DNA of 64,000 nucleotides from contig OZ038459.1 in the NCBI GenBank assembly GCA_964036195.1, positions 23,557,206 through 23,621,205 on the forward strand, read 5' to 3'. Of the stretch, positions 5,051-62,170 are shown piece after piece. The translations under genes were made by a program, and so were the position numbers. The notes beneath the pieces were generated by a model. That model saw nothing but the letters and a program-made list of their open reading frames with translations, was not told the origin of the DNA and made no database searches. Positions within the stretch are counted from its first letter, which is position 1; the number at the start of each line of letters is the position of its first letter. The stretch comes from Sphaerolaimus hirsutus. Its lineage: Eukaryota; Nematoda; Chromadorea; Monhysterida; Sphaerolaimidae.

Positions 5051-6290
5051 TGTTAAGTGTCACATGCCAGTCCACCTGTGTCAGCATTAAGCCACTTCAC
5101 AATTCATCACTGTGTATCACACACCGTTACACTGCTGTGCTATTTTGCTGTGTATAAAATGAAACGCTGCACACTGCTAGTATAAAAATAAATAAATAAT
5201 TAGCATGGAAACTGTCTGTAAAAACAGAATATGTTTTACACACGCGTATGTGTTAATACCGCTTTACACATGTTATTCAGGGGCACGCACTCATTTTACA
5301 AACACGATTATTTCTGTTTGAGTGGTCAGCCATTGTGAAGATGTGCGCAAATGTTGTGTAAGTTGTTTGAACGTGTAGTAAGGAAAATTCGAGGAATTTG
5401 GACAAAGTTTTGATCGTAAATTATTGTAAATCACGGTGAAATATTACACGGCTGTACATGAACGATGTGTGAGATTCTTAAAAAAATCAGAGAGAAAAAA
5501 AACAAAGCAATTCTACACATTTGAGGAAAATGCGAACCGCACAGACGAATTCGTTCATGGATATTAATTGAACTTTGAATTTGAAGTTTGAACTGAACTT
5601 TGCATGCCAATTGACACTTTACTTTACATTTGTCATAGCAATTGACACTTTGCATGACATTTTACATGACATTTGACACTACTTTACACTCCACAGGGTC
5701 TTGGATTTGGAATTTGAAAATGACAAATGTCATGCAAAGTGTCTAAAGTCTTAATCCCAAGAGACACTGTACTGTAAACACAACACTGCGGTCACTTTAC
5801 ATGCACCCAAAAAAATTTTTCTGAATTTCGTTTTCGGTACTCGCGTACGTTTCACTTTACTCAAGGCTTCAAGTTGATTAAAAAGCATAAATACCTCTAA
5901 AGTCCTTCCTTCATAAGAGAATTTGCTGTGGGTAAATTTAAAGTTACACGTTCGTCACATTTTGTTCCTGTGATGACGTCACTCATAAAATTTACCCCCA
6001 GCAAATTTCCTATGGTGGCATTTTAGAAGGAAGTTTTTTATGCAAACGGATTATGTGGAGAAAGAATGCAATAAAATGTAAGCCCTTTGATGTTCGCCGA
6101 ACATGCGACGCAGCCTGTTCGAGTGTATGCGAAATGAATAAATCCTATTTTACAATGGGCATTGTTTTTTGCACTATAATGACCAGTGACTAAATAAATA
6201 GAAGTGACAACAGAAGCGGTATACACTTTGTCCTTTATCCTTTTACGCGTTCTATTTCCCTGTCCTTGTTTGCAACCGAGTTGCCATTTT
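5051..6290. other. Non-coding DNA with small hairpins
   Basis: At 5560-5760 short words (TTGACACTTTGCATGACA and the like) match the interior of the introner-like family, but without its ends. A foldback is visible at 5921-6010 (GAATTTGCTGTGGGTAAA against TTTACCCCCAGCAAATTTC). No exon was recognised. Confidence 0.45.
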
Positions 6291-6295
6291 GCATG

Positions 6296-6345
6296 ACTTT
6301 TGACATTTTGCATGACATTTGACATTTTACAGGGTTTGGGAGGGC
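6296..6345. mobile_element. Right end of an introner-like TIR element (truncated)
   Basis: The words GACATTTTGCATGACA and TTTACAGGGTTTGGGAGG, followed by GCCCCCTGATG, match the right terminus of the elements at 20792-20983 and 24306-24501. No matching left end is visible, and the terminus lacks the final CAG that serves as acceptor in the genic copies. Confidence 0.6.
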
Positions 6346-6599
6346 CCCCTGATGTATATGAGTTGTATTTGAAGAGATTTCATCGGTGCGCTCTTTTTTC
6401 TTGCGCCTTTCCCTCACTACAATATTCTTTACTCGACTTTTTTATATCTGCGCCTAATGTTTTTACTTTCAAACGCGTTGTTTGTGGCGGATTTCTCATT
6501 TCTGCATTTACCAAACTGCATGCGGAAACCTTTGAATGCGGAATGTAAAAATTCAGAGTAGTGGGGCTGTGGTCTGGGACTACTTTGCTGAAAATGTGG

Positions 6600-9060: not shown

Positions 9061-9102
9061 ATGTCAGGAGCTAGTTCAACTGGGATCGATTTTGATCAAG
9101 GG
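9061..9102 (+). CDS. RNF216: RNF216-like exon 1 (start codon)
   Basis: ATG in context GACAATGTC encodes 14 residues (MSGASSTGIDFDQG) and ends in phase 0 before GTTAGC. The same ATG, peptide and donor are preserved in the duplicate at 33161-33202, which supports the start. Any 5' UTR is not delimited. Confidence 0.7.
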
Positions 9103-12100
9103 GTTAGCTTGATTTTACGCAACTTTTACTATTTAAGACTGTTGTTGGGGTCATTCCATCCAGCAATGTGAACTTACGAGCTTTTGGCACTGTTCCAATT
9201 TCTTTCGCAATCTCGATTCGCGCTTCATTTCAGCCCGATCTCGGCGGATTCGCTTTTCAGCCGCCGCAAAATTCAGTCGATCAGATTTACGAAATTTTGA
9301 GCGGAGTTTTTCCCCGCGCCGAGATTCAAAATCGCCTGCGGCAGGTGAAAATCGAAAATGGAAATCTGAGTTACGATGAGGTGCAAGGTTCGGTGATCAG
9401 TCAATTGCTCGCTGAGAAGGAGTGCAGGGAGGCTGGAAGTTCTACGGGTGGTGAGCGTCGTTTAAAGTGTTTTTTAAAGCGGTTTATCATATGAAACGGG
9501 AGGAGTTGACAGTACAAACCAATTGACAACGACACCAAATGTCAACTGGTCCCGATCCCAATTCAAAGCTGGTAGGTAGCTAGCTGACGGGTAACATTGC
9601 GCATTATTGTATTCACATTGAAATACATGATGCCGGTCTTGTACATTGCACATACCGCAATATTTTTGGTAAACTATTTACGACTTCATGTTCAACATGA
9701 TTCGATATTTTTGCATTCGTTCGTCGGCTTGTGTCAGCAAGCTTTGAATTAGGATTGGAACCAGTTGACATATTTTCTCATTGTCAACTAGTGTGTGTAG
9801 AACCAATAAGTGTAAACTGACTTTATATCAAATTCTCTAACAATCACAGGCGATCCAGTTTTGGCCTCGCTTTGCGAAATGTTTCCCGAAATGGACAAAA
9901 AGTTTCTGAATGAAGCTCTTAAAGCTTGCAATCGTGATGTGAACATGGCTGCAAACGAGATTTTAGCTGGCAACTTGCCAAATCTACAAAATGGCGCTTT
10001 CTCTAATTTCCGCAATCCCGATGATGACGAAATCAGGACAGAAGTTTTGGTTGAATTTCCGGACGAACAATATAGGTTTGTTGCGGTTGCAAGAAAAATT
10101 TTTTGGCGCTGTGTTCGGTTACTTTTCATTTCCGCATTTGTGTTTAGTTCCGCGTAGGTTTGCTAAGCATTACATTTTTAATTTCCCGATTTTTTAAAAA
10201 ATCGGTCGGATCAAAGTGAGCCCATTTGTCGTCAAAATAACCCCCGTGAGGAATATTTGATATGATAGCCAGTGTACTGTTATGCGTTTTGTGGTTATTT
10301 ATTTTCTGTAGAGCTTTGGTAGTTAGAGGAAAAACATCAAATGTTGTTCGTTTTCAAGTTTAAAAGTGATTACCGTATATCCTCGAATAAGACCCCAGGG
10401 GAGTTATTTTTTCGTCAGAGCTTTTGAGGGGGGAGTTATTCAAGGGAGGGAGTTATTTTTTCCTCAGAAAACTTGGACTTAATTCATTGTATGAATGCAT
10501 CCTGTCAACTCATGTAATCCAGCTATTTGACAGTTCAACAACAACAAAAAAGTGTGTATACATTGCATACACGCTATGTATTTGCTGAAGGTGCCATACG
10601 TTTACATTATTTTGTATTTCCATCGATCATTTTTGTAAAATATGTAGCATATTTTACACCCATAGGGGGGAGTTATTCAAGAGGGGGGAGTTTTTCGTAG
10701 GAGGGAGTAATTTTTTCGTCAGAGTATTTGAGGGGGGAGTTATTCGAGGGGGGGTCTTATTCAAGGATATACGGTAGATTGTTATATTTGCTGTGTGCAT
10801 CAGATTTCATCTTCCATTTGCAATTTTTTGGCAGAATTTGCAGAATGTTCTTGCACAGAACACTGGCTAAAAAAATTTGGAAAAATTGGCACCGTAAATT
10901 TTTGTTGTAAAATCATCACATTGTAAAACCGTGCAAATCATTCGCTGAATATGGCGATTTTCCTTTAACATATTTCCTAGATCCCCAGCAACTAGTAAAA
11001 AACTCCCTCGCAGCGGCCAGTCAAGTTCCACAGCGGATTTGCTCCAATCGTCATCAAGTTCAACTACGCAAAAAGTGCCGATAAAACGTCCCATTGACAA
11101 CGCGGGCGCACATTTAAATGCCGGTGCGAAGCTACCCAAACATGAGCATGCTAGCTGCAGCAGTAGTAGCGGTTTTCCGATACCCGGAATGCATCAAGAC
11201 CCGGGGCCGGAACCGAATTCCGGTTCTGCGCGTGCGAAGTTTGATTCGATCGATATGGAAATGGCGAGCAGAAGCGATGGAATGGTAATGACTCCCGCTA
11301 TGGGCAGAAAACGCAGCCAGTCCGTGAATGATTTGGAAGGTATTTTGTGTCTTTTTTAAATTTGGCTGAATGCTATGAACTGGGGATCGGTTTTGCACGT
11401 TTCAAATGCCTGGCAGAATTTCCAGTTTTGACCGTGCGTTTTGTTTCACATTGTTACTTTTACACCGGGTTTACTTGTGCACTGGTCCTGCGCCGTTTCA
11501 TGTTGGAGACATTTTTATTTTATACGACTTGAAAAATATGTCTCTTTGCGCGCAATTGAAATCAGTCTACTACAACAAAAATTACTGTGAACTGTGAATT
11601 GTCAACTATTTCTCTAATTCTCCAAAAAGTAGTTGCTACATTATTAATAATTATATAATATTAATAATACATTATTAATAATAATTAATTTTATAATTAT
11701 CCACAACAACTTTTCCCTTCCCAGAAATCGAGCAACTTCCCGCATCCAGTGTACCGGATCCGGAGCCAATTCCAATTTCCTGGCGCCAGCACATTCAAGA
11801 TAAAAATATCCTTCGAATGCTGACGGGCGCCCAGTGCCGCACGATAGGCAAATGTGTGCAGATTTTCCCACAGGCAGACCCAAACTGGATCGTGAAGCAG
11901 TTGCTGCATGTCGATGACCCGAAGACTTTTGAGCAGCTAGTCGAGGGTTCGTTTTTGAGGCAGGGGTCTCCCTGGTCACTGTGTCTGTAGTCATGTAAAC
12001 CCGCTAGTCATGTAGACCCGCCAGTCATGTATTTCTAGGGGTGGGGGTATTAGCACTCACAACGTTTTTGTCACTCTTGGTGATAAATAAAAATTGAAAA

Positions 12101-15100
12101 TCTCAAATCAGTTGTTATGCATTTGAGTTTTTCAATTTTTCTTTGAGCGGTGTCGTCAAAATGTGACAAATGTGAGTATACTCTCTGCGGCTTGCGCTGT
12201 GAACTCTACTTATCACGCACCCGCTGCCGCTTATGCCCTATGCTGTGTTAGGCCCGCCTGAAATACATGACTGGTGGGTTTACATGACTAGCGGATTTAC
12301 ATGACTAGTAGGCCTACGTCCTCCAATGGGGTATTTGGGGTTAGGGTTCAAACGGGATCCCGATCCCGATCCCGGATCCCGTGAAATTCCGGGATTTACC
12401 AGTCCCGATCCCGATCCCGAAACCCCAATCCCGATCCCGAAATCTCAAAAATACCAATCCCGATCCCGAAAATTTTCAAATCCCGATCCCGAGAAACTCC
12501 CAAGTCCGGGATCCCGATCCCGGAAAAATTAGTGGAAATTATAAAAAGTGAAATAATGACGTTTTTGCATGCAAAAAAGTGGATGCAAACCCCCAGCGTC
12601 AATTTTATGCCACTTTTCTGGCATCCAACAGTGTTTTGAGACCTTTATGAACAACTGTGAATGCCAGAAAAATGGCCGAAATCTCTATCCCTAGAACCCA
12701 ATCCCGATCCCGGAAAAATGCCTATCCCAATCCCGATCCCGTGTCCCCAATCCCGGCCAATCCCGATCCCGATCCCGAAATCTCAAAAAACCAATCCCGA
12801 TCCCGAAACCCCAATCCCGATCCCGATCCCGAAATCTCAAAAAGTGAATCCCGATCCCGATCCCGAAAAGTCGATCCCGTTTGAACCCTATTTGGGGTTG
12901 GCTTACCCTTCCAAACTGGAACCGAAAATTTGGAAATTCCGAACCTAGTAGACATTCACTTGAATTTTTCAGTCTTTGAACTATGATTACCTCCAGGGCC
13001 GTATCCAGGGGGGGCGGGGGGGGGCTGCAGGACCCCCTTTCCCGGGACGAGACCAGAAAGTGACAGGAAAATGTGACTTTTTCAACGTCAGCGTAAAAAA
13101 TTTTGCGCGCGAGCGCGCATTCTTCGCCAGACATGTGAAGACAACAGGTAATTATCATCAGATTTGCTCCATGTGGCCGCAAATCTTTATAAATACACTC
13201 AACGTTGTGCTTTTTGCTGTTTTGTATGTATATTTACATACATATACAGCGTTCCATGGCGCTGGCGCCAACGCCAATGGCACCATGACGTGGCACCTAC
13301 TAATGGCGCCATCGCCATGGCGCCATTCCGCCACTATGTAGCTAAAATTTTAGGGGTTGAGCCCCCCCCCCCCCTCGCCGGCCTCCGTAAACAAGCAGCC
13401 CCCCCCCCCCCGCTCAAAAATCCTGGATACGTCCCTGATTACCTCTACGATATCATTATGTTTCATTTACCCACCCGACAAAAAATAAGTTCACATTCAA
13501 CATTCACATTTGAACTCAGACATGATGTCGGCTCCATACGACCGGGTATCATCAGTTTTGGAGAAGCAAAAACGCGACCGCCGACGAAAAGCCTATTTGG
13601 ATCCGGCCCGATTCGACGCGGAAGATTATGTCCGAGCGCACGCTTTTGATCCGAAGAAAAAGTTTTCCGAAGACTCCGAGAAACCGACTGAGCTGTATAC
13701 GAAGCATTTGATGGTGGGTTGTTTTTGTTGCTGTTTTGCGTTTTGTACTTTTTTGAGTTGAGTTTACTGAGTTTTGAGTTGACGGAATGGTGCCAGTTAT
13801 AGTGTGTTATAGTTCCAGCTTTTGCGCCTGCGAAAACACCTATGCAAAATAGTTACTGATTGAGAGGCGCCGGTGCCTGGTGCGGTGATTTTGCCATTTC
13901 CGCAAAAATAGTGGATTTATCGACTTTTTCCAGGATAATACGGCATCGACTTCTTCTGAAAATTGTTTCTAATTGTTCAAAAAATGAATATTTTTAAGCA
14001 TTGGGAATTTACATTGGATAAACGTTGAAAAATGGCGAAAAAAATCTGCGCAGCCAATTCTCGATGCCACTTTTGTGCTTCACTCGAATTTCGAAATTTT
14101 GGACTTATCGGCTTTTAGATTTGAAGCTTCAAATGCATAAAAAGTTCCCACTTCACAGGCGTATTTAAACCACGAGTACTCGTGCTTGCGTCCCACTTGG
14201 CTGGCCGAATTTGTGAAGCACGCCGGCGGCGGTCGTTTATTGCCCATCTGCGATATGCTCGATCCTCGTACGTTTTTTTTCAAAAATATGGTTTTGGGTT
14301 TAAAAAAAGTTTTTAAAAACATTGTTATTTTTGCAGAGCGGTCGGTGGTTCGGCGGGGTCGGCGGCCGGATGTGCGGGTGCCCGATGAGATGGCACAGAG
14401 AAGATTGTTGAAAATGCCCGCCATATGTGAGTTGGGTGTTTTAGCTTTTAATTTTATTGGCAGTGTGCCAGCCCAAGATCGATTTTGCGAGTTGTCTAGC
14501 GACGAAGTGCTAGGTTACGACTGGTACGCAGGATTGTTTTTTAAAACGTATTTAAATTTTATTTAAATCAAGCAGCTGAGAATAAATTTCCATCCCTATG
14601 CGGTACGTAGTAAAACGAATTAATCAAAAAGTCTTGTAGATATACTCGGCGGACATGATACTCTGCCCTCGCACTCATTTATGTCCCACGTTGGAAGCAT
14701 GCCAATGATGATAAAGCATACGATTATTGTACAAAAGATGAAAAAATCATTGGTGTAGATAAATAACGTATAGCGTTATAACAGAGATGACTTTTCAACT
14801 TTTTGGAATGAAAATCGCACGCGTAAATTTTTTTTGGCACGCTTCCAGCGGGAACCACGCGTGCAGGGTGTAAAGTGACAGGAGTATACTAGAGTGACGG
14901 GTTAGGGGGAGTAGGCTGTTCAACAATTTTTCCTCGGGGTAAATCGACAGCTGGTGCGTTTTTTCTTGTTTTCTCTTCTGAGGGTTACCCCCTCCCACCT
15001 TGTACCCCCATAAGTGGATAGACGCTAAATATTCACAACTTCACCCTATTTTGCAGACCAATCGAGCAGCAGGAGGTCGCGCGGCTCAGTTCCCGCCTCT

Positions 15101-18100
15101 GTCCCGGACGAGCAGCCGGAAGAAAACAAAATCGAATGGCCCGAAACTTTCGACCAGAGGTTTTTCGCTGAACTGCAGTATGTCGTGCACAAGCCGGCGA
15201 TTGAAGGTATTTTTGGGACGTTTTAAAGACGTTTTCTGCTTTATTGGGCAATGTGCCAAGTCTCCAAGTGGCAAGAAAGTAGGGTTCATTCGGGATTGAC
15301 CGTGCGGGATAGGGGTTTATTTTTTGGGATAGGGATTGTTTTTTGAATTTGTGGTATCAGGTTATGGATTTAGTAATTCACTTCGTAGTTTAACTTTAAT
15401 TTGTATTTATTTTCAGACGTTTTATTGAAATTTTATTAAACGCGTTTTTATGTCTTACCCTGTTCGCAGCGCACCTCAACGCTCGTCTGGCAAAGCGCCA
15501 AGAGCGCCTGGCAGAGTGCCAAAGCGCGGGAAGCCAACTGTACACGTGCGACGTGTGCGCCGAGGACCAGGTGCTGCTCGAGGATCTGTGCTGCTGCAAC
15601 GAAGACCCGAAACACGTTTTCTGTGCTGATTGTGTCGCTGAACACGCCAGGGTCAAGGTCAAGGAAGGTTTGTGCGGGAGGGAGTCAGCTTTTTGTGGTT
15701 TTCATTCAGATGCTATTTTGTATGTAAGGTGCAAAGTGTGGGGGTCGGGGTACCAGTCGCATGCAGATGTAGGATTTTTCCACTGAAAAATCAATAAGCA
15801 AATAAAAAAACCCCACACTGTTCGTGTATTGTTTAGTAACAAGAACCGCTTCTAAAAAATCTAAATTTCTATTTTCGAAAAACCCCTTCTTAAAAAATCG
15901 AAAATCACCTTTTTAAAATCAAAATTGTTAAAAAAACTGAACTGATACCCCCCAGGTTCCCATCGAGTGCCGTGCATGCAGTCCCCCTGCGCGGGCACCT
16001 ACCTGCACTCGGTGCTGTCCAGCTTGTTGTGCAGGGCCGACATGGACACCTTGGACAGGTGCCACTCCCACACCCTGTGAAGAGCCATGTAAAGTGTGAA
16101 ATGACATACAAAGTGCCTAAAGTCATGGAAAATGCCCTGCAAAATTGCAAACATTGTTTTGCCATTCTGCAGGGCTTTTTACATGACTTCAGACACTTTG
16201 CATGACACTTGGCATTTTGCAGGGCACTTACAGGGTGCGGGAGTGCCCAGGTTGGCGGCGCAGAAGGACATCAACTCGTGCGACATCGATGGCCTGTATC
16301 ACTGTCCCTTCTGTCCCTACGCGGCCGTGCCCGATCCTAGTGTCAGGGTTTTTCAGTGTGAAGGCTGTGGCAAAGAGAGTTGCAGGTGGGTGAATGTGAA
16401 AAGTGAAAAGTAAAGTGACTTGTCATTTGATTTTTCACTTTTTTTTCACCTGTAAAAGTGATAAATATGTTGAAAACTCATTTGAATTTTCAGTTTTTAA
16501 CATATTTATCACTTTTTTCAAGTGATAAATCAATTGATAATCAGAAAGTGATAATTATGTTGAAAACTCATTTGAACCTTGAGAACTCGTTGTGCTGCTG
16601 GGGGAGGGGGGAAATGTTTGGGTGCCGACGACATAAGACGACACGCACATAGGCCCGTTTCGCACATAGCATCAGTGTGGTCTGGGTTTATCCATGTGCG
16701 AAACGGGCGTATGTGCGAAACGGGTTTATGTGCGAAATAGGCCTGGTCCAGTCAAAACCTGCGCTTCAATTTTAAGAATTAAAAAAGTCCATTAATTTTC
16801 TTCAGAGAATGCGGGGAGCCGAACCACGTGCCGCTGCGCTGCGAAGAAGTGGAGAAGGACTACGAAACGAAACTGCGCACCTACGTGGAGGAGCAGATGG
16901 CCGAGGCGCTCATCAGGGTCTGCCCCTCCTGCAAAAAGAGGTGCGTCTATGTTTTTGAAAAATAAAATTTAGTGTGCAAAAATTTTGTATCCACAAAGAT
17001 TTTCCTGCTTTTGTTTTTGGGTCAGGCCTATTGCGCATGTATAATCAACCCATTATGCATCTAGACCCATTATAGACGCATATACCTGCAGGGGTAAGAA
17101 ATGCGTGCCGGTTAGGGTTCGGACGATATGACTTTCCGATATCGATATTCGATATTCGATATATTTTTCATTATATTTTTCGATATATTCAATATTTTTT
17201 TCAAAATTTCCGATATTCGATATGAAAAAAACAGTCGATATCCGATATTCGATATTCAATACGATATATTGTCTGAACCCTAGTGCCGGTTCTAGATGCA
17301 TAATGGGTTTACATGCGTAATGGCACAGGGCCGTACCACATTTTTGTTACTTGTCTAACTCCACTAGCCGTCGCCCACACATTGTCTCTACACGCCAGTT
17401 GACACTAAATGTCCTGGTTTCCATCCCAATTTAAAGCTTGCTCACGGGTGACTTTATGCATATTATTGTATACGCATATACTTTGCACCGGCCTTGTACA
17501 TTGCACATAGCACAATTTTTTCCCAACACTACTGCTTGATTAGCAACATGTTTAAACACTTTTGTATTTAAATACCGTTTATCGGCTCGTCAGCAAGCTT
17601 TGAATTGGGATCGGAACCAGTTGACATTTTGCGTCCCTGTCAACTACTGGGTAAGCCCATTTTCCAGTTAGCAAAACTAAGCCTGAAACATCCTCCCATC
17701 ACAGGACCGTGAAAAAGGAAGGCTGCAATCACATGACTTGCGTGTGCGGCGAGCATTTCTGCTACGTGTGCAAGCAGCCCGTGTCGCCCAGGGACCCTTA
17801 CAGGCACTTCAAGGACGGCACGTGCAGCACGCACACTAGTATTGATCAGGTGGGTTTGGGGATGTTTTTAAGGTTTCTTTTTTAAACAGCGCTTTGGATG
17901 ATTTTGAAAAAAAAAACTGATTTTAATTTGAAAAAAAATCTTTAAAAAACGATCTTTTCTATCTTTTTTCTGAAGGCTTTCGAAAAAATTGAAATTTCCG
18001 AACCTCACAAATTTCTAATCCAAAACGTCAGGTTCACGCGGACGTGGCCGAGCGCGCCGGACGCGAGGCGAGGGAAAAGTTTCTGGCGGAAAATCCACAA

Positions 18101-21100
18101 CAGAAAGAGTTCCTGGAGGCGCGCGGAACAGCTGTCCTGGATGGGAATGCCATTGGGAATTTGGTCGATCGGCAGGCGCCCCGCGGCCGCGGGTGGGTTA
18201 TCTTTGCATGTACCGTATTACCTCGAAATACCCCCATGGCCCATTTTGTTTATTATTTCTCCAGCCCATTTGGGGGGGGGGTTCATTCAAGGGGGTGGGG
18301 GGGTAATTCAAGGTAATACGGTACTTGAGCAGCGAGAAATATCCATTTACACCATATCCATTAACATCCATTGAGAAAATCCATTTACATCCAAGAACAA
18401 AGTACACACACGTCATTTTTTTCAATATTCATCTTTCAGTTTGCAATTTGGTATATTTTTTGAGGTGGAGATTCAGATTGTCACATTTCAGGATTTGGGC
18501 TCGGGGTAGGGATCCCGTCTTTAAACTGACTTGCAGGTGTCGAATTTTGCCTTAAGTTTTGCCGTGCAAAATTTCAAATCTCTTGAAAATTTGCCGCTTT
18601 GCAGGGGCCCCGCACAGGTCAGACGAAGGGGAGCTCACGGCGAACACGGGGTATGTTTGAAAAATGTGCCCCTCTGTGTGGTTTGGAGAAGTGCATTTCG
18701 GAGCGTTTTTCGTGCAACGAATTGCGACCGGATTTGCCCAAATTTAAGCTCAAAATCTCTAATTTATTATTCATTCTTTTGCCCATTTTAACTTCAAAAT
18801 CACTTATTCACGTATACTCCAGCGACATTACACCTTACAATGAAATATCCCATATCCCATCTGAATAAAACAACAAACATAAAAAGGTTTTCATTATACA
18901 GGGGTGGGCATTTTCAGCTGCCGCTGGTAAAACGCGATAGCTTGAGCTACAGTTGAGCTATCACAATGAAATTTTTACACAATAGAGTAGACTTCACAGG
19001 GCACCAATTCTGAAGTTTGCTACCCAAACGGTAACATTTTGGGTGAGTTGTGGAACACACAGTTTTTAGTGTAATTTTGTGACTTGACATCTCTTATCTC
19101 GGGACTGGGGGACTATTCGAGAAAATAAAAGAATTCGGTCTTAGCCCCGACCCCAAACCAGGGGTCTCGAATAGGGGGGGTTGGGGGGGGGGGGGGTTAC
19201 CCCTCCCAAACCGCCCAGCTATCTATCTATCCCGAAGGCCGCTCAGCTATCTATCTATCCCGGAGGCAAAATTTTGGGCTACTACCCCCTAAACCCCCCC
19301 CCCCCCCCCAAATCGCCCGGCTATCTACCTATCTGGAGCGATTTTTCAGAAACTATACCCCAATTTTCGCTCAAAATCGCTATTTTTCATACCTATATAT
19401 AGATTTTCACCTCCAAAATCACAAGTTCATGCGTCTAACTGCCCATTTTCAGCTATTTAAAGTACTATATGCTCTTGTATACTCATTTTGAGCTATTTTA
19501 CACCTACTTTGAGCCAGGGGTATCCAGGATTTTGGCCCTCGCGGGGGCTGGATAGATAGCAAATCGCTCCTCCGGAGGGATAGATAGCTTGAAAATTTTT
19601 CTGGGGGGGGGGGGCTGGCGGGGGCACAATATATAGGCTTTCCAAGGTTAAGAAGGCATAAAGTGGAAAAAATCGCTAATAATCAGTTAAAAGTAGCCAA
19701 AAGTAGGTATAAAATGGCTAAAAATAGGTATATAACCATGTATATAGCCGGAAAGCATGATTTTGAAGGTGAAAAACTATAAAATGGTGCGAACATTAGT
19801 GATTTTGAGCGAAAATTGGGGCAAAATTTCTCAAAAACCACTCCAGATAGATAGATAGCTGAGCGATTTGGGGGGGGGGTCTTTTGGGGTAGTAGCCAAA
19901 AATTTTGCCTCGGGATAGATAGATAGCTGAGCGGCCTCCGGGATAGATAGATAGCTGGCCGATTTGGGGGGGGGGGCAGCCCCCCCCCCAGCCCCCCCCC
20001 TAGGAGACCCCTGCTTTGAGCGATTTCTCGCCCTTTTCCTCCTTCTATGCCCCGAAAAAGCCTATATATCGAACCACCACAACCCCCCCCCAACCCCCCC
20101 CCAACCCCCCAGAAAATTTTTCAGCTATCTATCCCTCCGGAGGAGCGATTTGCTATCTATCCAACCACTCGGAGGGTCAAAATTCAAGATACCCCTGCCC
20201 CAAACCCCAACATACTCAAAGGGAATCAAAATCGGGCAATGTTCGACAGAACGGGAAGACACCAAAATACCGGTGACCCACATCCCTAAAATGCCACCCT
20301 CGATTTATCCTATGGGTGACGCCAAGTCATCACAAAATTACACTAAAAACTGTGTGTTCCACAACTCACCCAAAATGTGGCCGTTTGGGTTGCAAACTTC
20401 AGAATAGGTGTCCTATGGAGTCTACTCAATTGTGTAAAATTTTCATTGTGATAGCTCAACTGTAGCTCAAGCTATCGCGTTTTACCAGCGGCAGCTGAAA
20501 ATGCCCACCCCTGTATTTATCAAAGCAATTTATAAAGCTGAAAAAATTTATTTTTATGTTTGTTTTTTATTCATATGGGATATGGTAGATTTAGTTGTGA
20601 GGTGTAATGTCGCTGGAGTATACCTAATAACCTCCTAGCGGTCTCCCCGTCTCGCTCGAACCATTTTCAGAATGTAAAAATAAAATTCCACAAACAAAAT
20701 GATGGTTGCGCAGCGCCGGCGAGTGCGGCATTTGCAAGTGGAAATGGAGCAAATGGAGCAAATGGAACAAATGTTGAGAATGGATCTCCAGGTGCCAATC
20801 CCAGACCCTGTAAAAAGCCCTGTAAAATGTCAAATGTCATGCAAAGTGTCAAAAGTCATGGAAAATGCCCTGCGAAATGGCAACCGAGTTGCCATTTCGC
20901 AGGGCATTTTCCATTACTCTAGACACTTTGCACGACATTTGACATTTTACAGGGCTTTTTACAGGGTCTGGGACTGCCCCCAGGATTTACGACAGCTGCA
21001 GCAAATGCGAGACGATCTGCCGCTCGATGCTCGGCTGCAGCAGCTCCAGGGGCGTGAGGGGCACGTGCAGCAGCTGCGGCAGTTGGAGCAGCAGCAGCGG

Positions 21101-24100
21101 CAGTTGGAGCAGCCGCAGCGGCACTTGGAGCAGCACCGGCGGCAGTTGGAGCGACAGCAGCAGGTGCCAATTTTCTCAAGTGCATCGGTAAAGTGCCAAG
21201 TGTCAAGCAGGAGTATTCTAGATTTCGACCCTCCGGGGGGTTGGATATGGATAGCAAATCGATTCTCCGGAGGGATGGATAGCTGAAAATTTGTTGTTTT
21301 TTTTTGGGGGGGGGGTTTGCGGGGGTTCAATATATAGGTATAGAAGGGAGGAAGAGGAGAAAAATGGCTAAAAGTAGATGAAAATTAGGCAATTAGACGC
21401 ATGAACTAGGTATTTTGTAAATGAACATCTATATAAAGGTATGAGAAATAGCGATTTTGAGCGAAAATTTGGGTATGGTTTCTCAAAAATCACTCAATAT
21501 CCCCCCAACCCCCCCCCCCCCCGTTTCCTACCCCTGGTGTAAAGTCCACTAGTCGACTGACAAGAAAGCAAAAAAGTGACTATTTAAAATACATGTCGCT
21601 TACGTTTACTTCATTTGTTCTGCCACTCATCACTGGACTTTACTCTGCATTTTTCTCAACGAAACTGCGAAAACTCTCAGCGCATGTAAACTCTCAGTAC
21701 ATCTAAGCTCCCGGCGCATGTAAACGCATAGTGCGCATCTATGCACACTATGCGTGTGGTGACAATCAAAGATTCACCAGGCCGCGCCCCGGTGCAAACC
21801 AACTTCCGCGTCTTTTCCTTACTATAGTACTGAAAACCATATTTTTGAGAATTTACTTGATACTCTTGATCTATCATTAGCACTTTTCTATCTACGTTGA
21901 CTTTTTACGTGATTTTTTATTGGAAGTGTGAAGTCACTGTAGGTGGTACGAAAGAGCTGTGGAAAAACTTCCAAGACGGGAGTTGCATACCGCACCGCTG
22001 CCGCACCGGATGCATGCTGGGTGTACAAATGCGCTGAGAGCACATTTACATGCGCAGAGGGTTTACATGCGCTGAGGCACACCGCCAACGAAACACTCTT
22101 TATCATGTGCAGCAGCTGCAAGATGATTTCGAGCGGCAGCAGCGCCATCAACTAGCGCAGCAGCGGCAGCGGCAACAGCAGCAGCAGCTGGCGCAGCAGC
22201 GGCTCCTTGCGCAGCGGGAACACGAGCGCGTCGCGCGGCAGCGGCTGCAAGCTGCGCGGCACCTTGAACTGACGCACAACTTGAGGGGCCACGAGAAGCG
22301 TGAAGGTAAACTGAGAGCCGAACATGCGAACGTGCTGCGGCAGGTTGAGAAGTTGCAGCGGCGGCAGCCGGCGCGTCCAGAAGTGAGTATTTCTGGGCCA
22401 GGGTCTAGTGCACATCTGAACCCGCTACTTTGCATGACCCTCCAATCATCTGGTGCTACCCAATACTCATCTGTGCCCCCTTAGATCTGTACCCAACTTA
22501 ACGTACAAAATCCGGTGCGCCCGGTGCACATGTAGACCTGGGGCCAGATTCAATACTCCCTACAGATTTGTAGGGTAGGGCGTACGCCCGATAGATTTTT
22601 CAAAGTTCAGCCGCATCGACGCACATGAAGCGAGAGCAAGGCGGTTCATAAAATACACGAAACTATCCCTTAACGTCGCCGATATTGCAATCTGACGGTT
22701 ATCGCTTCGATTTTGGCTCGGAAATCACGATTTCGTCATTTCGTGGCCGTCTGCCAATTCGTTTTTTATTTTATTTTGTCGGGCAGGTTACTCGCATAAG
22801 TCGCGCTTTTGTACGCTCGTGCATGCATTTCTTTCTTGTCGCTGCCCTCATGGTTTCGGTTGCAGACAGTGAACACTAAAAAAGTGACCACCTGACTACA
22901 CGAAAGCGTGACCTATGCGAGTAACCCGCCCGACAAAATAAAATAAAAAACGAATTGGCAGACGGCCGAGAAATGTCTAAATCGTGATTTCCGGGCCAAA
23001 ATCGTAGTGATATACGTCATATTGCAATATCGGCAACCTTAAGGGATGGTTTCATATATTTTACAAACCGCCTTGCTCTCGGTGCATGTGCGTCGATGCG
23101 GCGAAACTTTAAAAAATCTGTCGGGCGTACGCCCTACCCTACAAATCTGTAGGGAGTATTAAATCTGGCCCCAGGTGATCGGGGTTTTTACATCTACATT
23201 ATTTTTGATAGTTGGCTATCTGTTTACGAAGCCCGGTGAACGGGGGGGGGGCGGTTTCAGTCCCCCTAAAATTTTACCGACATGGTGACGGAATGGTGTC
23301 ATGCAGGGGGGGGGGGCGGGGGGGGGGGCTGCAGCCCCTCCCCCCTCCCGGGGCGAGACCAGAAAGTGACCGGAAAATGCGACTTTTTCAACTTCAGCGT
23401 GAAAAATTTTGCGCGCAAGCGCGCATTCTTCACCAGACAAGGTATTATTATCAGGTGTTGCTCCATGTGGCCGCAAATCGTTATAAATATACTCAATGTG
23501 GTGCTTTTTGCTGTTTTGTATGTATATTTAAAATACATATACAGCGTTCCATGGCGCTGACGCCAACGCCAATGGCGCCATGCCATGGCGCCTACCAATG
23601 GCGCCATTCCGCCACTATGTAGCTAAAATTTTAGGGGGGGGGCTGAGCCCCCCCTCGCCGGCCTCCGTAAACAAGCAGCACCCCCGCTCAAAAATCCTGG
23701 ATACGTCCCTGGTGTCATGGCGCTGAAGCCTTGGCGTTGGCACCGAAAATTGCTGATGTGTATCTAAATAATTATACATGTAGAGCGATGAGCACGCCAT
23801 TCGGTCGAGGTTATAGAGAATGTACAGCACAAGGACCGATTTACTTGAAAAAAAAATCAGAGTGTTGGAAAAATGCGGGAAAATGGGTCTACATTCACAT
23901 CGGGTCTACATGTGCACCGGCACAGGGCTGAATTAAATGGGGCCGAAGGTATGAGTCTCATTTGGCACTAAGTGTGCAGCCCTCTTGGACAAAAACCCGG
24001 TGCGCATGTAAACCTGGTGCACATGTAGTAGACTCGGTGATTGGGGAGCCAGGGACATTTTTGGGTGGGGCGCTGTTTGTTTACGGAGCCCGGTAAACGT

Positions 24101-24540
24101 AGTAGGTAGAAGTAGGTGAATAGCGGGTCTTGATGAGTAGCGGGTTTACACGACTACCAGGCCCACACCCGCCGTATATGTATTTTTACACATGTCTCCG
24201 CTAAAACAACTGCAGGATGCCGAACAGTTGCAGCAACTCCAAAATACATTGGACCGGCTGAATGGACTAATAAATGATGTGGTTGTCCAACGTGTGCAGG
24301 CCCAGGTGGCACTCCCAAGCCCTGTAAAGTGAAAGTAAAGTGTCAACTGTAAAGTCAAATGCAAAGTAAACTGTCAATTGTCATGCAAAGTTCAATGATA
24401 AAATCTTTTCTTTTTTTTGTTTCGATTGACACTTCACTTTGCATTTGACTTTACATTTGGCACTTTACTTTACACTTTACAGGGCTTGGGACTGCCCCCA
24501 GGGCGCATTGCGGCAGCACGATGAACAACAAGACGAGTGA
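9061..24540 (+). CDS. RNF216: RNF216/TRIAD3-like RBR E3 ubiquitin ligase with C-terminal Gln-rich coiled coil (21 exons)
   Basis: Exons: 9061-9102, 9234-9450, 9850-10075, 10981-11339, 11725-11946, 13520-13713, 14159-14267, 14337-14426, 15057-15206, 15470-15667, 15956-16058, 16251-16385, 16806-16940, 17705-17849, 18032-18192, 18605-18650, 20714-20791, 20984-21163, 22113-22382, 24216-24305, 24502-24540. All junctions are GT-AG, phases match, and the sum (3189 bases) gives 1062 codons plus TGA. The product should be a RING-HECT-hybrid ligase that takes ubiquitin from E2 onto a RING2 cysteine (C739, in HMTC). CUE-like modules lie at about residues 20-75, 90-130 and 230-270, the RBR at 560-775, and a Gln-rich coil at 845-1062. 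The IBR, RING2 and following helical segment match RNF216. The Gln-rich tail is unlike the Pro-rich tail of vertebrate RNF216. The ATG at 9061 was chosen because it opens the frame and is conserved in the duplicate at 33161. Exons 16-21 are less certain than 1-15. Confidence 0.82.
9234..9450 (+). CDS. RNF216: RNF216-like exon 2, CUE-like segment
   Basis: The acceptor is TTTCAG at 9228-9233 and the donor GTGAGC at 9451; phase 0 in, phase 1 out. It encodes a helical segment with the F-P core typical of CUE/UBA-like folds (EILSGVFPRAEI). A diverged but open copy is at 33329-33545. Confidence 0.8.
9511..9794. mobile_element. TTGACA-type TIR MITE in intron 2
   Basis: Left part TTGACAACGACACCAAATG, right part TCATTGTCAACTAGTGTG, with the family hallmark CCAATTCAAAGCT inside. 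Relatives are at 17389-17646, 25556-25783, 33616-34866, 60790 and in the eight satellite modules from 38392. It makes up most of intron 2. Confidence 0.6.
9850..10075 (+). CDS. RNF216: RNF216-like exon 3, CUE domain
   Basis: Acceptor AATCACAG, donor GTTTGT; phases 1 in, 2 out. It contains the clearest CUE motif: LCEMFPEMDKKFLNEAL followed by a CNRDVNMAANEIL helix. CUE domains bind ubiquitin, so this may help the ligase recognise ubiquitinated partners. The distal part is acidic (NPDDDEIRTE). Confidence 0.82.
10373..10774. mobile_element. CCGTATATCCTCGAATAA TIR MITE in intron 3
   Basis: CCGTATATCCTCGAATAAG and TTATTCAAGGATATACGG are inverted ends flanked by TA. Runs of G in the body; words GGGGGGAGTTATTC repeat. 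Same family as 34175-34511 and 60257-60674. Confidence 0.75.
10981..11339 (+). CDS. RNF216: RNF216-like exon 4, Ser-rich linker
   Basis: Acceptor TTTCCTAG, donor GTATTT; phases 2 in, 1 out. It encodes about 120 residues rich in Ser, Pro and Gly (for example SSSSSTTQKVPIKRP), probably disordered. The GRKRSQSVNDLE segment near its end looks like a basic site suited to phosphorylation (inference). Confidence 0.72.
11725..11946 (+). CDS. RNF216: RNF216-like exon 5, third CUE-like segment
   Basis: Acceptor CTTCCCAG, donor GTTCGT; phases 1 in, 1 out. After a Pro-rich start it encodes CVQIFPQADPNWIVKQLL, the third F-P helix of this gene. It is GC-richer than the flanking introns, as real exons here tend to be. 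Confidence 0.75.
11986..12318. repeat. Inverted array of CATGTAAACCCGCTAGT words in intron 5
   Basis: TCATGTAAACCCGCTAGTC and variants stand in direct copies at the left (11990-12030) and in inverted copies at the right (12255-12315), with the end words TAGTCATG/CATGACTA. It is one of a class of word arrays also seen at 16640-16745, 17030-17340, 21680-22090, 24110-24165 and 55960-56140. Confidence 0.6.
12342..12890. mobile_element. hAT-type MITE filled with CCCGATCCCGAT array (intron 5)
   Basis: Starts TAGGGTTCAAACGGGATC and ends CCCGTTTGAACCCTA, flanked by perfect 8-bp duplications TTTGGGGT. About half its length is degenerate (CCCGAT)n, which is nearly self-complementary with GGGATC. The central 12540-12660 is unique and contains TTTTTGCATGCAAAAAA. 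Close copies are at 24659-25244 and 33664-34103. Confidence 0.88.
12994..13437. mobile_element. hAT-type MITE (CAGGGACGTATCC family) in intron 5
   Basis: Ends CAGGGCCGTATCCAGG and CCTGGATACGTCCCTG, flanked by perfect 8-bp duplications ATTACCTC. Body as in 3419-3797: CCCGGGACGAGACCAG, GCGCGCGAGCGCGC, an ATGGCGCTGGCGCC block and C/G runs. It lies about 80 bases upstream of the exon 6 acceptor. Confidence 0.88.
13520..13713 (+). CDS. RNF216: RNF216-like exon 6, basic helical segment
   Basis: Acceptor GAACTCAG, donor GTGGGT; phase 1 in, 0 out. Encodes VLEKQKRDRRRKAYLDPARF and a further charged stretch ending in TKHLM. No named domain recognised; it lies between the CUE-like region and the RBR. 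Confidence 0.78.
14159..14267 (+). CDS. RNF216: RNF216-like exon 7
   Basis: Acceptor CTTCACAG, donor GTACGT; phases 0 in, 1 out. Encodes AYLNHEYSCLRPTWLAEF and HAGGGRLLPICDMLDP. No domain recognised, but GC content, splice sites and phase all fit an exon. Confidence 0.75.
14337..14426 (+). CDS. RNF216: RNF216-like exon 8
   Basis: Acceptor TTTTGCAG, donor GTGAGT (a full consensus); phases 1 in, 1 out. Encodes an Arg-rich segment (RSVVRRGRRPDVRVPDE). Intron 7 is only 69 bases, the shortest in the gene. Confidence 0.75.
14637..14896. mobile_element. GAGTATACT-type foldback element in intron 8
   Basis: Left end AGATATACTCGGCGGAC, right end ACAGGAGTATACTAG. Internal inverted words (ACGTTGGAAGCATGCC against GGCACGCTTCCAGCG). 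A close relative occurs in both palindrome arms (52490-52700, 59930-60060) and a diverged one at 25912-26151. Confidence 0.55.
15057..15206 (+). CDS. RNF216: RNF216-like exon 9
   Basis: Acceptor TTTTGCAG, donor GTATTT; phases 1 in, 1 out. The second half encodes NKIEWPETFDQRFFAEL and QYVVHKPAIE, an amphipathic helical lead-in to the RBR. The first half is Ser/Arg-rich. Confidence 0.78.
15470..15667 (+). CDS. RNF216: RNF216-like exon 10, RING1
   Basis: Acceptor GTTCGCAG, donor GTTTGT; phases 1 in, 1 out. After a charged helix it carries the RING1-like Cys cluster YTCDVCAEDQVLLEDLCCC and HVFCADCVAEHARV. RING1 of RBR ligases docks the charged E2. The spacing is RNF216-like rather than a canonical C3HC4. 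Confidence 0.85.
15956..16058 (+). CDS. RNF216: RNF216-like exon 11, end of RING1
   Basis: Acceptor CCCCCAG, phases 1 in, 2 out; encodes VPCMQSPCAGTYLHSVL and CRADMDTLDR. The donor is not independent genomic sequence: it is the left end (GTGCCACTCCC) of the TIR element that forms intron 11. Confidence 0.85.
16059..16250. mobile_element. Introner-like TIR element forming intron 11 exactly (192 bp)
   Basis: Left end GTGCCACTCCCACACCCTG, right end CAGGGTGCGGGAGTGCCCAG. The interior is also imperfectly inverted (AAAGTCATGGAAAATGCCC against CATGACTTCAGACACTTTG), so the element is one long hairpin. The first two bases are the splice donor and the last two the acceptor; removal joins TTGGACAG to GTTGGCGG in frame inside the RBR. 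Read through, the frame meets TGA 24 bases in. The flanking CAG occurs on both sides. Confidence 0.88.
16251..16385 (+). CDS. RNF216: RNF216-like exon 12, IBR first half
   Basis: Phases 2 in, 2 out, donor GTGGGT. Encodes LYHCPFCPYAAVPDPSV and FQCEGCGKESCR, matching the IBR Cys pairs of RNF216. Its acceptor is the right end of the introner-like element. Confidence 0.88.
16806..16940 (+). CDS. RNF216: RNF216-like exon 13, IBR second half to RING2 start
   Basis: Acceptor CTTCAG, donor GTGCGT; phases 2 in, 2 out. Encodes ECGEPNHVPLRCEE (last IBR Cys/His ligands), a long linker helix (TYVEEQMAEALIRV) and the first RING2 pair CPSCKKR. Confidence 0.88.
17030..17340. repeat. Inverted word array (GCATAATGGGTTTACATGC) in intron 13, interrupted
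   Basis: GGCCTATTGCGCATGTA at the left and TACATGCGTAATGGC at the right are inverted, with further inverted words (CATTATGCATCTAG against CTAGATGCATAATG). The centre is occupied by the hAT-type element at 17113-17282. Confidence 0.55.
17113..17282. mobile_element. hAT-type MITE filled with CGATATCG words (intron 13)
   Basis: Starts TAGGGTTCGGACGATATG and ends ATATTGTCTGAACCCTA, flanked by perfect 8-bp duplications GTGCCGGT. The body is degenerate copies of TTCGATATTCGATAT, a self-complementary word. A truncated relative is at 35325-35543. Confidence 0.85.
17389..17646. mobile_element. TTGACA-type TIR MITE in intron 13
   Basis: CCAGTTGACACTAAATGTC at the left and CCAGTTGACATTTTGCG at the right, with the family hallmarks TTTAAAGCTTGCTCACG and CAGCAAGCTTTGAATTGG as an inverted pair. 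It ends about 60 bases before exon 14. Confidence 0.6.
17705..17849 (+). CDS. RNF216: RNF216-like exon 14, RING2 with catalytic Cys
   Basis: Acceptor CATCACAG, donor GTGGGT; phases 2 in, 0 out. Encodes TVKKEGCNHMTCVCGEHF and CYVCKQPVSPRDPYRHF. In RBR ligases the Cys of the HMTC motif forms the ubiquitin thioester; here it is codon 17739-17741 (residue 739). All expected RING2 Cys/His positions are present, so the enzyme looks intact. Confidence 0.9.
18032..18192 (+). CDS. RNF216: RNF216-like exon 15, post-RBR helix
   Basis: Acceptor AACGTCAG, donor GTGGGT; phases 0 in, 2 out. Encodes DVAERAGREAREKFLAEN and LVDRQAPRGRG. The charged helix directly after RING2 corresponds in position to the Glu/Lys-rich helix of RNF216. 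Confidence 0.85.
18213..18321. mobile_element. Short CCGTATTACCTCGAAATA MITE in intron 15
   Basis: CCGTATTACCTCGAAATAC and AATTCAAGGTAATACGG are inverted, flanked by TA. At 109 bases it is the smallest complete copy of the family in the window, and it sits 20 bases after a splice donor. Confidence 0.75.
18605..18650 (+). CDS. RNF216: RNF216-like exon 16 (probable)
   Basis: Acceptor CTTTGCAG, donor GTATGT; phases 2 in, 0 out. Encodes PAQVRRRGAHGEHG. Short and of low complexity, so it is called mainly because it is GC-rich, has good splice sites and connects exon 15 (phase 2) to exon 17 (phase 0). Confidence 0.55.
18812..20623. mobile_element. Composite inverted-repeat element (1.8 kb) in intron 16
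   Basis: Outer ends GTATACTCCAGCGACATT and AATGTCGCTGGAGTATAC are inverted. Inside, CAGGGGTGGGCATTTTC (18900) pairs with its reverse at 20515, and about 180 bases of arm follow on each side. The centre (19100-20220) is a jumble of CTATCTATC/CGGAGG units with long C and G runs. No coding capacity seen. Confidence 0.7.
20714..20791 (+). CDS. RNF216: RNF216-like exon 17, Gln-rich coil
   Basis: Acceptor TTGCGCAG, phase 0 in, phase 0 out. Encodes RRRVRHLQVEMEQMEQM and MLRMDLQ. The donor GTGCCAATCCC is the left end of the next introner-like element. An alternative reading is that an ATG at 20699 starts a separate gene; continuous phase from exon 15 favours the fused model. Confidence 0.6.
20792..20983. 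mobile_element. Introner-like TIR element forming intron 17 exactly (192 bp)
   Basis: Left end GTGCCAATCCCAGACCCTG, right end CAGGGTCTGGGACTGCCCCC followed by the acceptor CAG; the arms stay inverted almost to the centre (GGCAACCGAGTTGCC). Flanked by CAG on both sides. Its length equals that of the element in intron 11. Unlike that copy it has no stop in the gene's frame, so unspliced RNA would still encode protein. Confidence 0.85.
20984..21163 (+). CDS. RNF216: RNF216-like exon 18, Gln-rich coil
   Basis: Phase 0 on both sides; 60 residues of heptad-like Leu/Gln/Arg sequence (for example RQLEQQQRQLEQPQRHLEQ). The donor GTGCCAATTTTC again resembles the left end of the introner-like family, but the rest of intron 18 is filled with other repeats. 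Confidence 0.65.
21164..22112. repeat. Intron 18: degraded introner start, CTATCTATC unit and word array
   Basis: The first about 50 bases (GTGCCAATTTTC, AAAGTGCCAAGTGTCAA) look like a decayed introner left end. 21220-21530 is a CGGAGGGATGGATAGC/C-run block, and 21680-22090 holds direct and inverted copies of GCGCATGTAAACTCTCAG-like words. No exon seen. Confidence 0.5.
22113..22382 (+). CDS. RNF216: RNF216-like exon 19, Gln-rich coil
   Basis: Acceptor CATGTGCAG, donor GTGAGT; phase 0 on both sides. 90 residues, almost all Gln, Arg, Leu, Ala and Glu, predicted as a long coiled coil (for example HVLRQVEKLQ-like heptads near the end). Part of the CAG/GCAGCGG richness could be repeat expansion, but the periodic Leu/Ala favours selection for a coil. 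Confidence 0.65.
22538..23174. mobile_element. 637-bp near-perfect foldback element in intron 19
   Basis: Ends CTGGGGCCAGATTCAATAC and TATTAAATCTGGCCCCAG; pairing continues through GTAGGGTAGGGCGTACG and almost to the centre (CGAATTGGCAGACGGCC against GGCCGTCTGCCAATTCG). No clear target duplication. Nothing coding. Confidence 0.75.
23304..23711. mobile_element. hAT-type MITE (CAGGG family) in intron 19
   Basis: Flanked by perfect 8-bp duplications GTGTCATG; right end CCTGGATACGTCCCTG. It is inserted in an older relative, since 23215-23290 and 23720-23760 show matching words (GAAGCCCGGTGAACGG, GCGTTGGCACC) on either side. Confidence 0.85.
24216..24305 (+). CDS. RNF216: RNF216-like exon 20, coil
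   Basis: Acceptor CAACTGCAG, phase 0 on both sides. Encodes DAEQLQQLQNTLDRLNGL and INDVVVQRVQAQ. The donor GTGGCACTCCC is the left end of the introner-like element that follows. Confidence 0.65.
24306..24501. mobile_element. Introner-like TIR element forming intron 20 exactly (196 bp)
   Basis: Left end GTGGCACTCCCAAGCCCTG, right end CAGGGCTTGGGACTGCCCCC plus acceptor AG. The sub-terminal arms (AAAGTGTCAACTGTAAAGTC against inverted counterparts) pair, and the loop TTTTCTTTTTTTTGTTTCG is shared with the copies at 53075 and 61149. CAG stands on both sides. In-frame TGA follows within 30 bases, so the last exon requires removal. Confidence 0.85.
24502..24540 (+). CDS. RNF216: RNF216-like exon 21 (last coding exon)
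   Basis: Encodes GALRQHDEQQDE and the stop TGA at 24538-24540. The composition continues the Gln-rich coil in phase 0. No AATAAA lies close by; a CAATAAAAAAAT at about 25403 is possible but lies beyond a hAT insertion, so the 3' end is not defined. Confidence 0.62.
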   Translation, partial: GALRQHDEQQDE

Positions 24541-45400: not shown

Positions 45401-45900
45401 ATGTGAGAGTGAGCAAAATTTTAAATGTGAGAGTGCGCGAAGCTGCAAATGTGAGAGTGCGCGAAACTGCAAATGTGAGAGTGAGCAAAATTGTAAATGT
45501 GAGAGTGCGCGAAGCTGCAAATGTGAGAGTGCGCGAAACTGCAAATGTGAGAGTGAGCAAAATGGTAAATGTGAGAGTGAGCAAAATTGTAAATGTGAGA
45601 GTGCGCGAAGCTGCAAATGTGAGAGTGAGCAAAATGGTAAATGTGAGAGTGAGCAAAATTGTAAATGTGAGAGTGCGCGAAGCTGCAAATGTGAGAGTGA
45701 GCAAAATGGTAAATGTGAGAGTGAGCAAAATTGTAAATGTGAGAGTGCGCAAAGCTGCAAATGTGAGAGTGCGCAAAACTGCAAATGTGCAAAGTTGACA
45801 TTGACACCAAATGTCAACTGGTGCCGATCCCGATTCAAAGCTTGCTGACGAGTGGACAAACGACATTCAAACGCAATCTTTGAATTTGGAACGGAACCAG
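36449..45900. repeat. 4.7-kb tandem segmental duplication
   Basis: 36449-41171 is repeated from 41172 with an offset of 4724 bases, including the unique AT-rich part (36960-37290 against 41684-42014) and the arrays. Differences are few (for example AATTAGTGAAG/AATTGGTGAAG near 43358). A deletion of about 233 bases near 44.5 kb changes the offset to 4491. It is either a very recent duplication or partly an assembly effect of the repeats. Confidence 0.85.
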
Positions 45901-47615: not shown

Positions 47616-47658
47616 AAAAGCAACTAACGTGCACCGGCTATAGCTCCCCACACTGGAT

Positions 47659-47811: not shown

Positions 47812-47837
47812 CTGATTTGGGCATCAAAAGAAATCAA

Positions 47838-61148: not shown

Positions 61149-62170
61149 GTGGCAGTCCCAAACAACGATGGAAAAAACACAGAAATTGAACACAGAAACT
61201 CATTGAGTTTCTGTGTTTTTGTTTCACACAGAAACACGGAAACTCACAAATTTTGAAAAACTCAAAACTCAAATGAGCTGTTTTTTTGAGAATACAGAAA
61301 AACAGAAACACGGAAACACAGAAAAGTTTTTTGAGTTTTTGAGTTTTTTTCAGCAAAGTGGTTGAACACATTTTCAGAATTCACATGAATTCAGTTAAAC
61401 TAAACAAGATAAGATATGCATGTATAGCATGTAAATATGTACATAATGTATTCATTTTTTATGATGGAACAAAAAATAAATTAAAGATGGCATGCACATC
61501 TCCTGGTGGACATGTTTAAATATAGTTGTAGTTCAAATCAATGCTGTAGTCTTCCATACAGTGCACATCCATTGAAGAATTTTGGAGTACTGTGTAAATT
61601 GTTGTTTGTGAGCATTTTGTTGATGCTGGTGTTGTGATATGGGTGAATGGAATTTTTATGGACTTTTTTGACACTTGAATGAATACACATATGTTATGTG
61701 GGGTTCAAACATGTGCAAAACCAATTTTTTATAAGAAAACCGCTGTTACCACATCAAATAGCTGTAAATCAGAATTTGGGGGGATTAGAGTTTTTTGGAC
61801 AAAAACTCGAGTTTTTTAGAGAAAAAAAACTAAAAAAATACGAGTTTTAACAAAAAACACAGTAATAAAAACAGAGTTACTCAAGTTTTTTTCGATAAAA
61901 AAACTCAAAACACAGGTATTCATTTTTGAAAAACTCAAAACACAGAAAGTGTTTTTTTTTGGAGAACTTACCCATCGTTGGTCCCAAGCCCTGTAAAGTG
62001 TAAAGTAAAGTGTCAAATGTAAAGTCAACTGCAAAGTAAACAGTCAATTGCAAAGTTCAGTAATAACATCTTTTCTTTTTTGTTTTGATTGACACTTTAC
62101 TTTGCAGTTGACTTTACATTTGACACTTTACTTTACACTTTACAGGGCTTGGGAATGGGACTGCCCCCAG
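61149..62170. mobile_element. Introner-like element interrupted by another transposon
   Basis: Left end (after CAG) GTGGCAGTCCCAA, right part GTCCCAAGCCCTGTAAAG to ACTGCCCCCAG at 62170. Flanked by CAG on both sides like the genic copies. No exon is recognisable on either side, so this copy seems intergenic or lies in an unrecognised intron. Interrupted by 61163-61980. Confidence 0.7.
61163..61980. mobile_element. CAACGATGG TIR element nested in the introner-like copy
   Basis: CAACGATGG and CCATCGTTG are the ends; the flanks GTCCCAAA and GTCCCAAG are an 8-bp near-duplication of introner sequence. Inside are repeated words such as ACACAGAAACACGGAAAC and AAAAACTCAAAACACAG, inverted left against right. 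Probably hAT-type. Confidence 0.7.

Follow-up and report, generated by a model that had tools for sequence, protein, structure and literature searches.

Probable transposon insertions behind three introns of Sphaerolaimus hirsutus, and a candidate animal introner family related to NuwaI

Introduction

Three predicted introns in the window (the whole 64,000-nucleotide stretch of DNA analysed here, which sits on contig C15 of a 348-Mb genome) resemble one another and fold back on themselves. This raises the question of whether they are insertions of a transposon that can serve as an intron where it lands. Such elements, called introners, are a leading explanation of bursts of intron gain, and animal cases are scarce. 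The introners of Micromonas and Aureococcus are MITE-like and have created introns on a genomic scale. The family described here differs from these in its host, theirs being algal, and in its target duplications.

Three foldback introns and their host genes

The initial annotation placed the three introns at 16059-16250, 20792-20983 and 24306-24501, with lengths of 192, 192 and 196 bases. All of these values are verified, and GT...AG ends, common inverted termini and an internal foldback are seen in each intron. The description of the three as exact copies was too strong, as their pairwise identity is only 62-81% (80.5% between the copies at 16059 and 20792, and 63.4% and 62.0% for the other two pairs). 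In addition, intron 1 ends with GGGAGTGCCCAG, two bases short of the 3' terminus that had been given. The introns and the host gene features around them are as follows.

9061..18192, plus strand: gene model of an RNF216-like RBR ligase with 16 exons and 842 amino acids
15956..16058, plus strand: exon upstream of introner 1 (RNF216-like)
16056..16058, plus strand: 5' CAG copy of the target duplication of introner 1, forming the exon end (from the sequence and the family pattern)
16059..16250, plus strand: introner 1, comprising the element and the 3' copy of the target duplication, CAG (16248-16250); donor GTGCCA, acceptor CCCAG
16251..16385, plus strand: exon downstream of introner 1, start of the IBR
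20792..20983, plus strand: introner 2, a near-perfect foldback with CAG on both sides; arms of 98 nt, 92% complementary, 3 nt between them
20984..21163, plus strand: exon from introner 2 to the following intron, coding for coiled coil in phase 0
24216..24305, plus strand: exon upstream of introner 3
24306..24501, plus strand: introner 3, of the GTGGCA...AAGCCC subfamily, 196 nt, CAG on both sides
24502..24540, plus strand: last coding exon after introner 3, ending with TGA

Introner 1 lies between RING1 and the IBR of the RNF216-like gene and is a phase 2 intron. The predicted protein matches RNF216 in PDB 7m4m (E 2e-24), and the alignment is gapless at the junction, D-R|L-A. Of the 15 other donors in the gene model, 12 have a G at position +5, which the element donor, GTGCCA or GTGGCA, lacks. 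Introns 2 and 3 separate coiled-coil exons that are joined in phase 0, and once introner 3 is removed a stop codon follows 12 codons on. No homology was found that ties the coiled-coil exons (20699-24540) to RNF216, and an ATG is present at 20699; these exons may form a gene separate from the RNF216-like one.

That removal of the introns keeps the frame, as had been claimed, holds for intron 1 within the 842-amino-acid protein and for introns 2 and 3, which lie between exons whose lengths are multiples of three and which end at a stop. Introns 1 and 3 carry in-frame stops. Because intron 2 would be open in frame if it were retained (ORF 20699-21286), the case for its splicing rests on its resemblance to the family. 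All three introns are predicted to fold as RNA far better than shuffled sequences, with z values of -9.5, -23.5 and -17.2.

Related termini recur in the window. There are six occurrences of GGGACTGCCCCCAG with at most two mismatches where 0.09 are expected, and 24 occurrences of GTGSCANTCCC with at most one mismatch where 4.85 are expected, although 8 of these 24 (GTGCCGATCCC) fall within the tandem array at 38-47 kb.

Genome-wide abundance

The exact 26-base 5' end CWGGTGSCANTCCCANRCCCTGTAAA is found 5,193 times in the genome (2,605 + 2,588), and the reversed control pattern is found 0 times. CAG stands in front of 2,677 of these ends and CTG in front of 2,516, a ratio of 51.6 to 48.4 (p 0.026). 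Since the two flanks are almost equally common, most copies are probably not introns, and those that are located in exons are probably only a minority. No sequence in viral_contigs matches the TIR pattern.

With intron 2 as a query there were 1,232 genome candidates. The 40 that were scored, each in its better orientation, are 91-100% identical to the query over nearly the full length. The loci fetched for further analysis were 28 of these 40 matches and 50 loci found with the CWGGTGSCANTCCCANRCCCTGTAAA pattern, the latter being a position-ordered set on contig C1 and not a random one. From 80 loci and the window, 100 unique elements were obtained (108 before duplicates were removed), and each was turned so that its GTG end comes first where it has one. 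The traits of a MITE are found together in this family, namely a typical length of about 190 nt, flanking TIRs, no coding content, a strong foldback and 5' ends numbering at least 5,193.

Target site and transposon class

A GTG start is present in 92 of the 100 elements, which is partly owing to how the elements were turned. Among these 92, CWG is found in front of 82 and behind 69. The flanks are CAG/CAG in 34 elements, CTG/CTG in 22, CTG/CAG in 8, CAG/CTG in 4 and other combinations in 24, these last being the elements that lack CWG on one or both sides. Where CWG is present on both sides, the W agrees in 56 of 68 elements and disagrees in 12 (Fisher p 1.4e-7). Of the 92 elements, 53 have C at position -4 and 47 have G directly behind the duplication, which indicates a preferred target of C-CWG-G. 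The element is thus flanked by a 3-bp CWG target duplication within a preferred CCWGG. The 3' end is CCCC, corresponding to a TIR of GGGG, in 66 of the 92.

These features point to a published group of transposons, whereas the initial annotation had not recognised the family. NuwaI elements, a group of the PHIS (PIF/Harbinger) transposons, are described as having CWG duplications, TIRs that usually begin with GGG, and animal hosts (Han et al. 2015, PMC4482050). The present family shares the CWG duplication and the animal host, and the 3' end, though not the 5' end, of most of its elements corresponds to a GGG-type TIR. Unlike NuwaI as presented there, the element is a foldback MITE of about 190 nt that has no transposase of its own, and its 5' TIR begins with GTG. 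An intron-making role, which is proposed here for the element, is absent from the description of NuwaI in that paper. By its termini and target site, the family appears to match the NuwaI group of Harbinger with one TIR reading GTG instead of GGG.

An empty site and a carrier transposon

Locus L080 holds, on its minus strand, a DDE_Tnp_4 (Harbinger) transposase gene whose first part is interrupted by a copy of the element.

About L080:4678-4872, equal to C1:28879877-28880071, minus strand: introner copy in the L080 transposase gene

When this copy is removed, the sequence ...SYPL|DDSSDED is joined in frame. A diverged copy of the same transposon, L083 (C1:25982575-25986137), is without the element and reads GAGCAG|GACGAC, where the filled site of L080 reads CTG-element-CAG|GACGAC; counted on the alignment, the exon length is the same in both. 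The empty site in L083 shows a precise insertion into a previously uninterrupted site, and this evidence comes from one paralogous site in a transposase gene. The L080 copy is flanked by CTG on its 5' side but CAG on its 3' side, and the 5' duplication has therefore probably undergone one base change after insertion.

Among the 40 that were scored of 4,552 candidates, at least 15 copies of the filled transposon, counting L080, span the insertion site at 97-100% identity. A copy of the element that sits in a different, recently amplified Harbinger transposon has spread along with that transposon. The one terminus of the filled transposon that is seen differs from the introner TIR, while the other was looked for and not found. 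For this reason the L080-type transposon is called a carrier, and a role as mobiliser is not supported.

An autonomous NuwaI member would be expected to bear the same TIR together with a DDE transposase and a Myb/SANT ORF. DDE_Tnp_4 transposases are plentiful in the genome. There is no GGGGCANTCCC terminus with at most one mismatch in the two 6-kb transposase loci L079 and L080, and L079 (C1:20511500-20517500), which was considered as the partner transposase, was rejected as having no matching TIR. L079 and more than 100 listed places in the genome represent a further family of Harbinger-type transposases, whose copies score very much alike. The DDE region of the L079 type exceeds the profile by about 160 nt and has four TGA codons inside, perhaps indicating introns.

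Coding context of the junctions

A Pfam scan was carried out on 40 of 167 junction-spanning fragments (32 sense and 8 antisense), a biased selection made by codon score and by eye. There are matches in six of the 40 (L004, L010, L018, L025, L026 and L051), and the matched stretch crosses the junction in four, which correspond to CNOT1 (L004), a sulfate transporter (L010), a kinase (L018) and SLC6 (L025). All four are read in the GTG-first direction of the element; the first three are flanked by CAG/CAG and L025 by CTG/CTG. The remaining 34 scanned fragments, high-scoring CTG copies among them, have no Pfam match. Three loci recognised by eye, L024 (ADAMTS-like), L054 (SMYD-like) and L077 (Cys-rich), also gave none. 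The codon-usage score was discarded as evidence of coding; the CTG copies L047, L043, L050 and L063 also ranked high, and the score was judged to have drifted towards a measure of G+C after self-training.

When compared with solved structures, L010 aligns with SLC26-type sulfate transporters, and L025 with GABA transporter 1, without a gap at the junction. The MARK-like kinase of L018 has a one-residue gap about five residues from the junction, and CNOT1 in L004 has a two-residue gap at the junction. Similar introns whose likeness extends up to both splice sites are predicted from the DNA in the unrelated RNF216, CNOT1, SLC26 and MARK-like kinase genes.

Locus L025 (C13:10920189-10924375, minus strand) breaks the simple rule, since the conserved SLC6 exon there holds a CTG/CTG copy. 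This copy reads TCTAG where most of the elements compared have TCTGG or CTTGG, and this TCTAG could act as an in-frame acceptor 12 nt before the end of the element, adding four codons. An AG at about the same place is also found in L049 and in the copy at 4435 of the window (minus strand), and copies that read GGGAG close to their end could likewise use an acceptor at +9 nt. In the L025 copy, the four GT dinucleotides nearest the 5' end, at element positions 0, 6, 18 and 30, are each a multiple of three away from the donor, and any of them, paired with the outer acceptor, would maintain the frame; the fifth GT, at 37, would not.

Coding flanks were also assessed, in the fetched copies with CWG on both sides, by open frames that cross the junction and extend for at least 40 codons to either side of it. 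Such frames occur in the sense direction in 22 of 41 copies with a CAG acceptor, versus 6 of 25 with a CTG acceptor and 256 of 1,725 background sites, defined as every CAGG of the same loci including those inside elements and exons (p 0.022 and 1.4e-8). In the C1 sample alone, the sense counts are 8 of 21 for CAG versus 5 of 20 for CTG. Antisense frames, which are not expected to be favoured, are also raised, with 12 of 41 for CAG (p 0.024) and 8 of 25 for CTG. Rank tests of CAG against CTG copies are not significant for frame length (p 0.11) or flank G+C (p 0.28). The initial annotation had looked to enrichment of copies at exact intron boundaries; in the fetched sample, coding flanks are moderately over-represented among CAG copies, and most copies are probably located outside exons.

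Proposed route from insertion to intron

The three introns are probably insertions of a non-autonomous foldback TIR transposon (a MITE) of NuwaI type, from the Harbinger (PHIS) superfamily, in which CAG|GT would provide the donor and the duplicated CAG the acceptor. The initial annotation had already proposed a TIR transposon whose ends are splice sites. To this are now added the thousands of copies, the matched CWG duplications, the domains restored at several junctions and the empty site; we infer the splicing itself from DNA.

If the target CAG is on the coding strand and the GTG end comes first, insertion would produce CAG|GTG...CCCC CAG|G. The element would contribute the GT, whereas the duplicated CAG would contribute both the exonic side of the donor and the AG of the acceptor. 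The spliceosome would then take CAG|GT as donor and the second CAG as acceptor, leaving CAG|G, a proto-splice site, and an mRNA exactly as it was before insertion. Because the earlier mRNA would be restored, we propose that such an insertion is nearly harmless and stays as a new intron. In the reverse orientation the donor position would hold GG, and with a CTG target the acceptor would be TG. Exonic copies of these kinds would be expected to disappear, except where a new AG arises in frame. The transposase that mobilises the element is likewise presumed.

A broader history seems to us about equally apt to prove right or wrong. In this history, a NuwaI-type transposase has a CCWGG target that overlaps with CAG|G, the proto-splice site, and its MITEs would for that reason have been prone to become introns. 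One G-to-T change in a TIR would have created a donor, after which the family produced introns on a mass scale in an animal host. A family member would also have entered, as an intron, the transposase gene of another Harbinger element and spread through the amplification of that transposon.

Three other explanations need to be considered. Splicing might take place mostly at a donor within the TIR, GTAAA, 18 nt downstream of the outer GTG, with six codons added per insertion. The frame would be kept because the site is 18 nt inside, and GTAAA has a better donor likeness at +3 and +4 than the outer GTG. However, its exonic side is CCT rather than CAG, its +5 position is also not G, and the six added residues would fall where the RNF216 and SLC26 domains align gapless, which makes this arrangement unlikely. 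We consider it somewhat less likely still that these are ordinary MITEs, with a GT and AG that are a by-product of the target site and do not lead to splicing, and with exonic cases that represent recent damage, pseudogenes or assembly alleles. In favour of this are the number of copies, at least 5,193, and their nearly equal CAG and CTG flanks; in addition, over half of the fetched copies are without long junction-spanning frames, and antisense frames are raised. Yet copies in the spliceable arrangement are present in several conserved coding exons, and a transposon with a copy in its own transposase gene was amplified afterwards.

Duplication of an existing intron by reverse splicing and reverse transcription would account for the fact that copies in coding exons start and finish at splice sites. 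This RNA-based route is nevertheless disfavoured, to the point of being very improbable, by the TIRs and the matched CWG target duplications, by copies outside the gene models of the window, and by CTG copies that are almost as numerous as CAG copies. The insertion of a MITE that carries its donor and gains its acceptor is thus the reading we prefer.

Relation to known introners

Across the 3,325 genomes surveyed by Gozashti et al. (2022, PMC9860276), introners are reported from just two groups of animals. That survey describes families in which one splice site is carried by the element and the other comes from the target duplication, and among its examples the target duplication of the Aureococcus sp. 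introner is 8 bp. Like the introners presented there, the family discussed here has TIRs and target duplications, and its many introns in unrelated genes resemble one another up to the splice sites. Its arrangement of one carried site and one from the duplication is that described for Chrysochromulina sp., which showed no TIRs (PMC9860276). Unlike the introners in that account, the present family combines a 3-bp CWG duplication with TIRs in an animal host. It also differs in its copies, at least 5,193 and probably mostly non-exonic, and in having one copy inside the transposase gene of another transposon. The word 'Harbinger' is absent from the main text of PMC9860276, and in a full-text literature search introners and Harbinger occurred together in one paper, on fungi.

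We therefore regard this as an animal introner family that is a variation on known introner and NuwaI themes; its unpublished status rests on a limited literature search. With thousands of copies, a defined 3-bp duplication, an empty site, and an internal negative control in the CTG or reversed copies, which are expected not to splice, intron gain would become directly measurable. In such a genome, one could measure the rate at which insertions are tolerated, the splice sites that are used and the selection that sorts orientations. A 2025 paper reportedly deals with horizontal transfer of introners.

Other copies and repeats

Three further copies of the element in the window are altered in different ways.

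6272..6351, plus strand: truncated copy, 3' half, ending CCCCCTG
61149..62170, plus strand: copy flanked CCAG...CCAG, apparently with another foldback transposon nested in the 5' TIR
63130..63462, plus strand: degenerate copy ending ...GGGACTGCCCCCTG, without a terminal AG

The intron that follows introner 2 (21164-21215, donor CAG|GTGCCAATTTTC...GGTAAAGTG) resembles a decayed introner 5' end that has been enlarged by other insertions. A nearly identical ORF is found on opposite strands at 52808-53179 and 59467-59832, and within each stretch lies a truncated element copy (53075 and 59555). There are also two large foldbacks, at 28463-29241 and 22536-23176, with arms of 360 and 277 nt that are about 90% complementary. 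A long repeat array occupies 37466-47840 and has open frames in several phases, encoding repeats of the CESEQNCK and SHLQFCSL types. Genes such as RNF216, CNOT1, SLC26 and SLC6 accord with an animal host, and elsewhere in the genome a piece of mitochondrial COX1 (L082) reads sensibly with AGA as Ser, TGA as Trp and ATA as Met, as in many protostomes.
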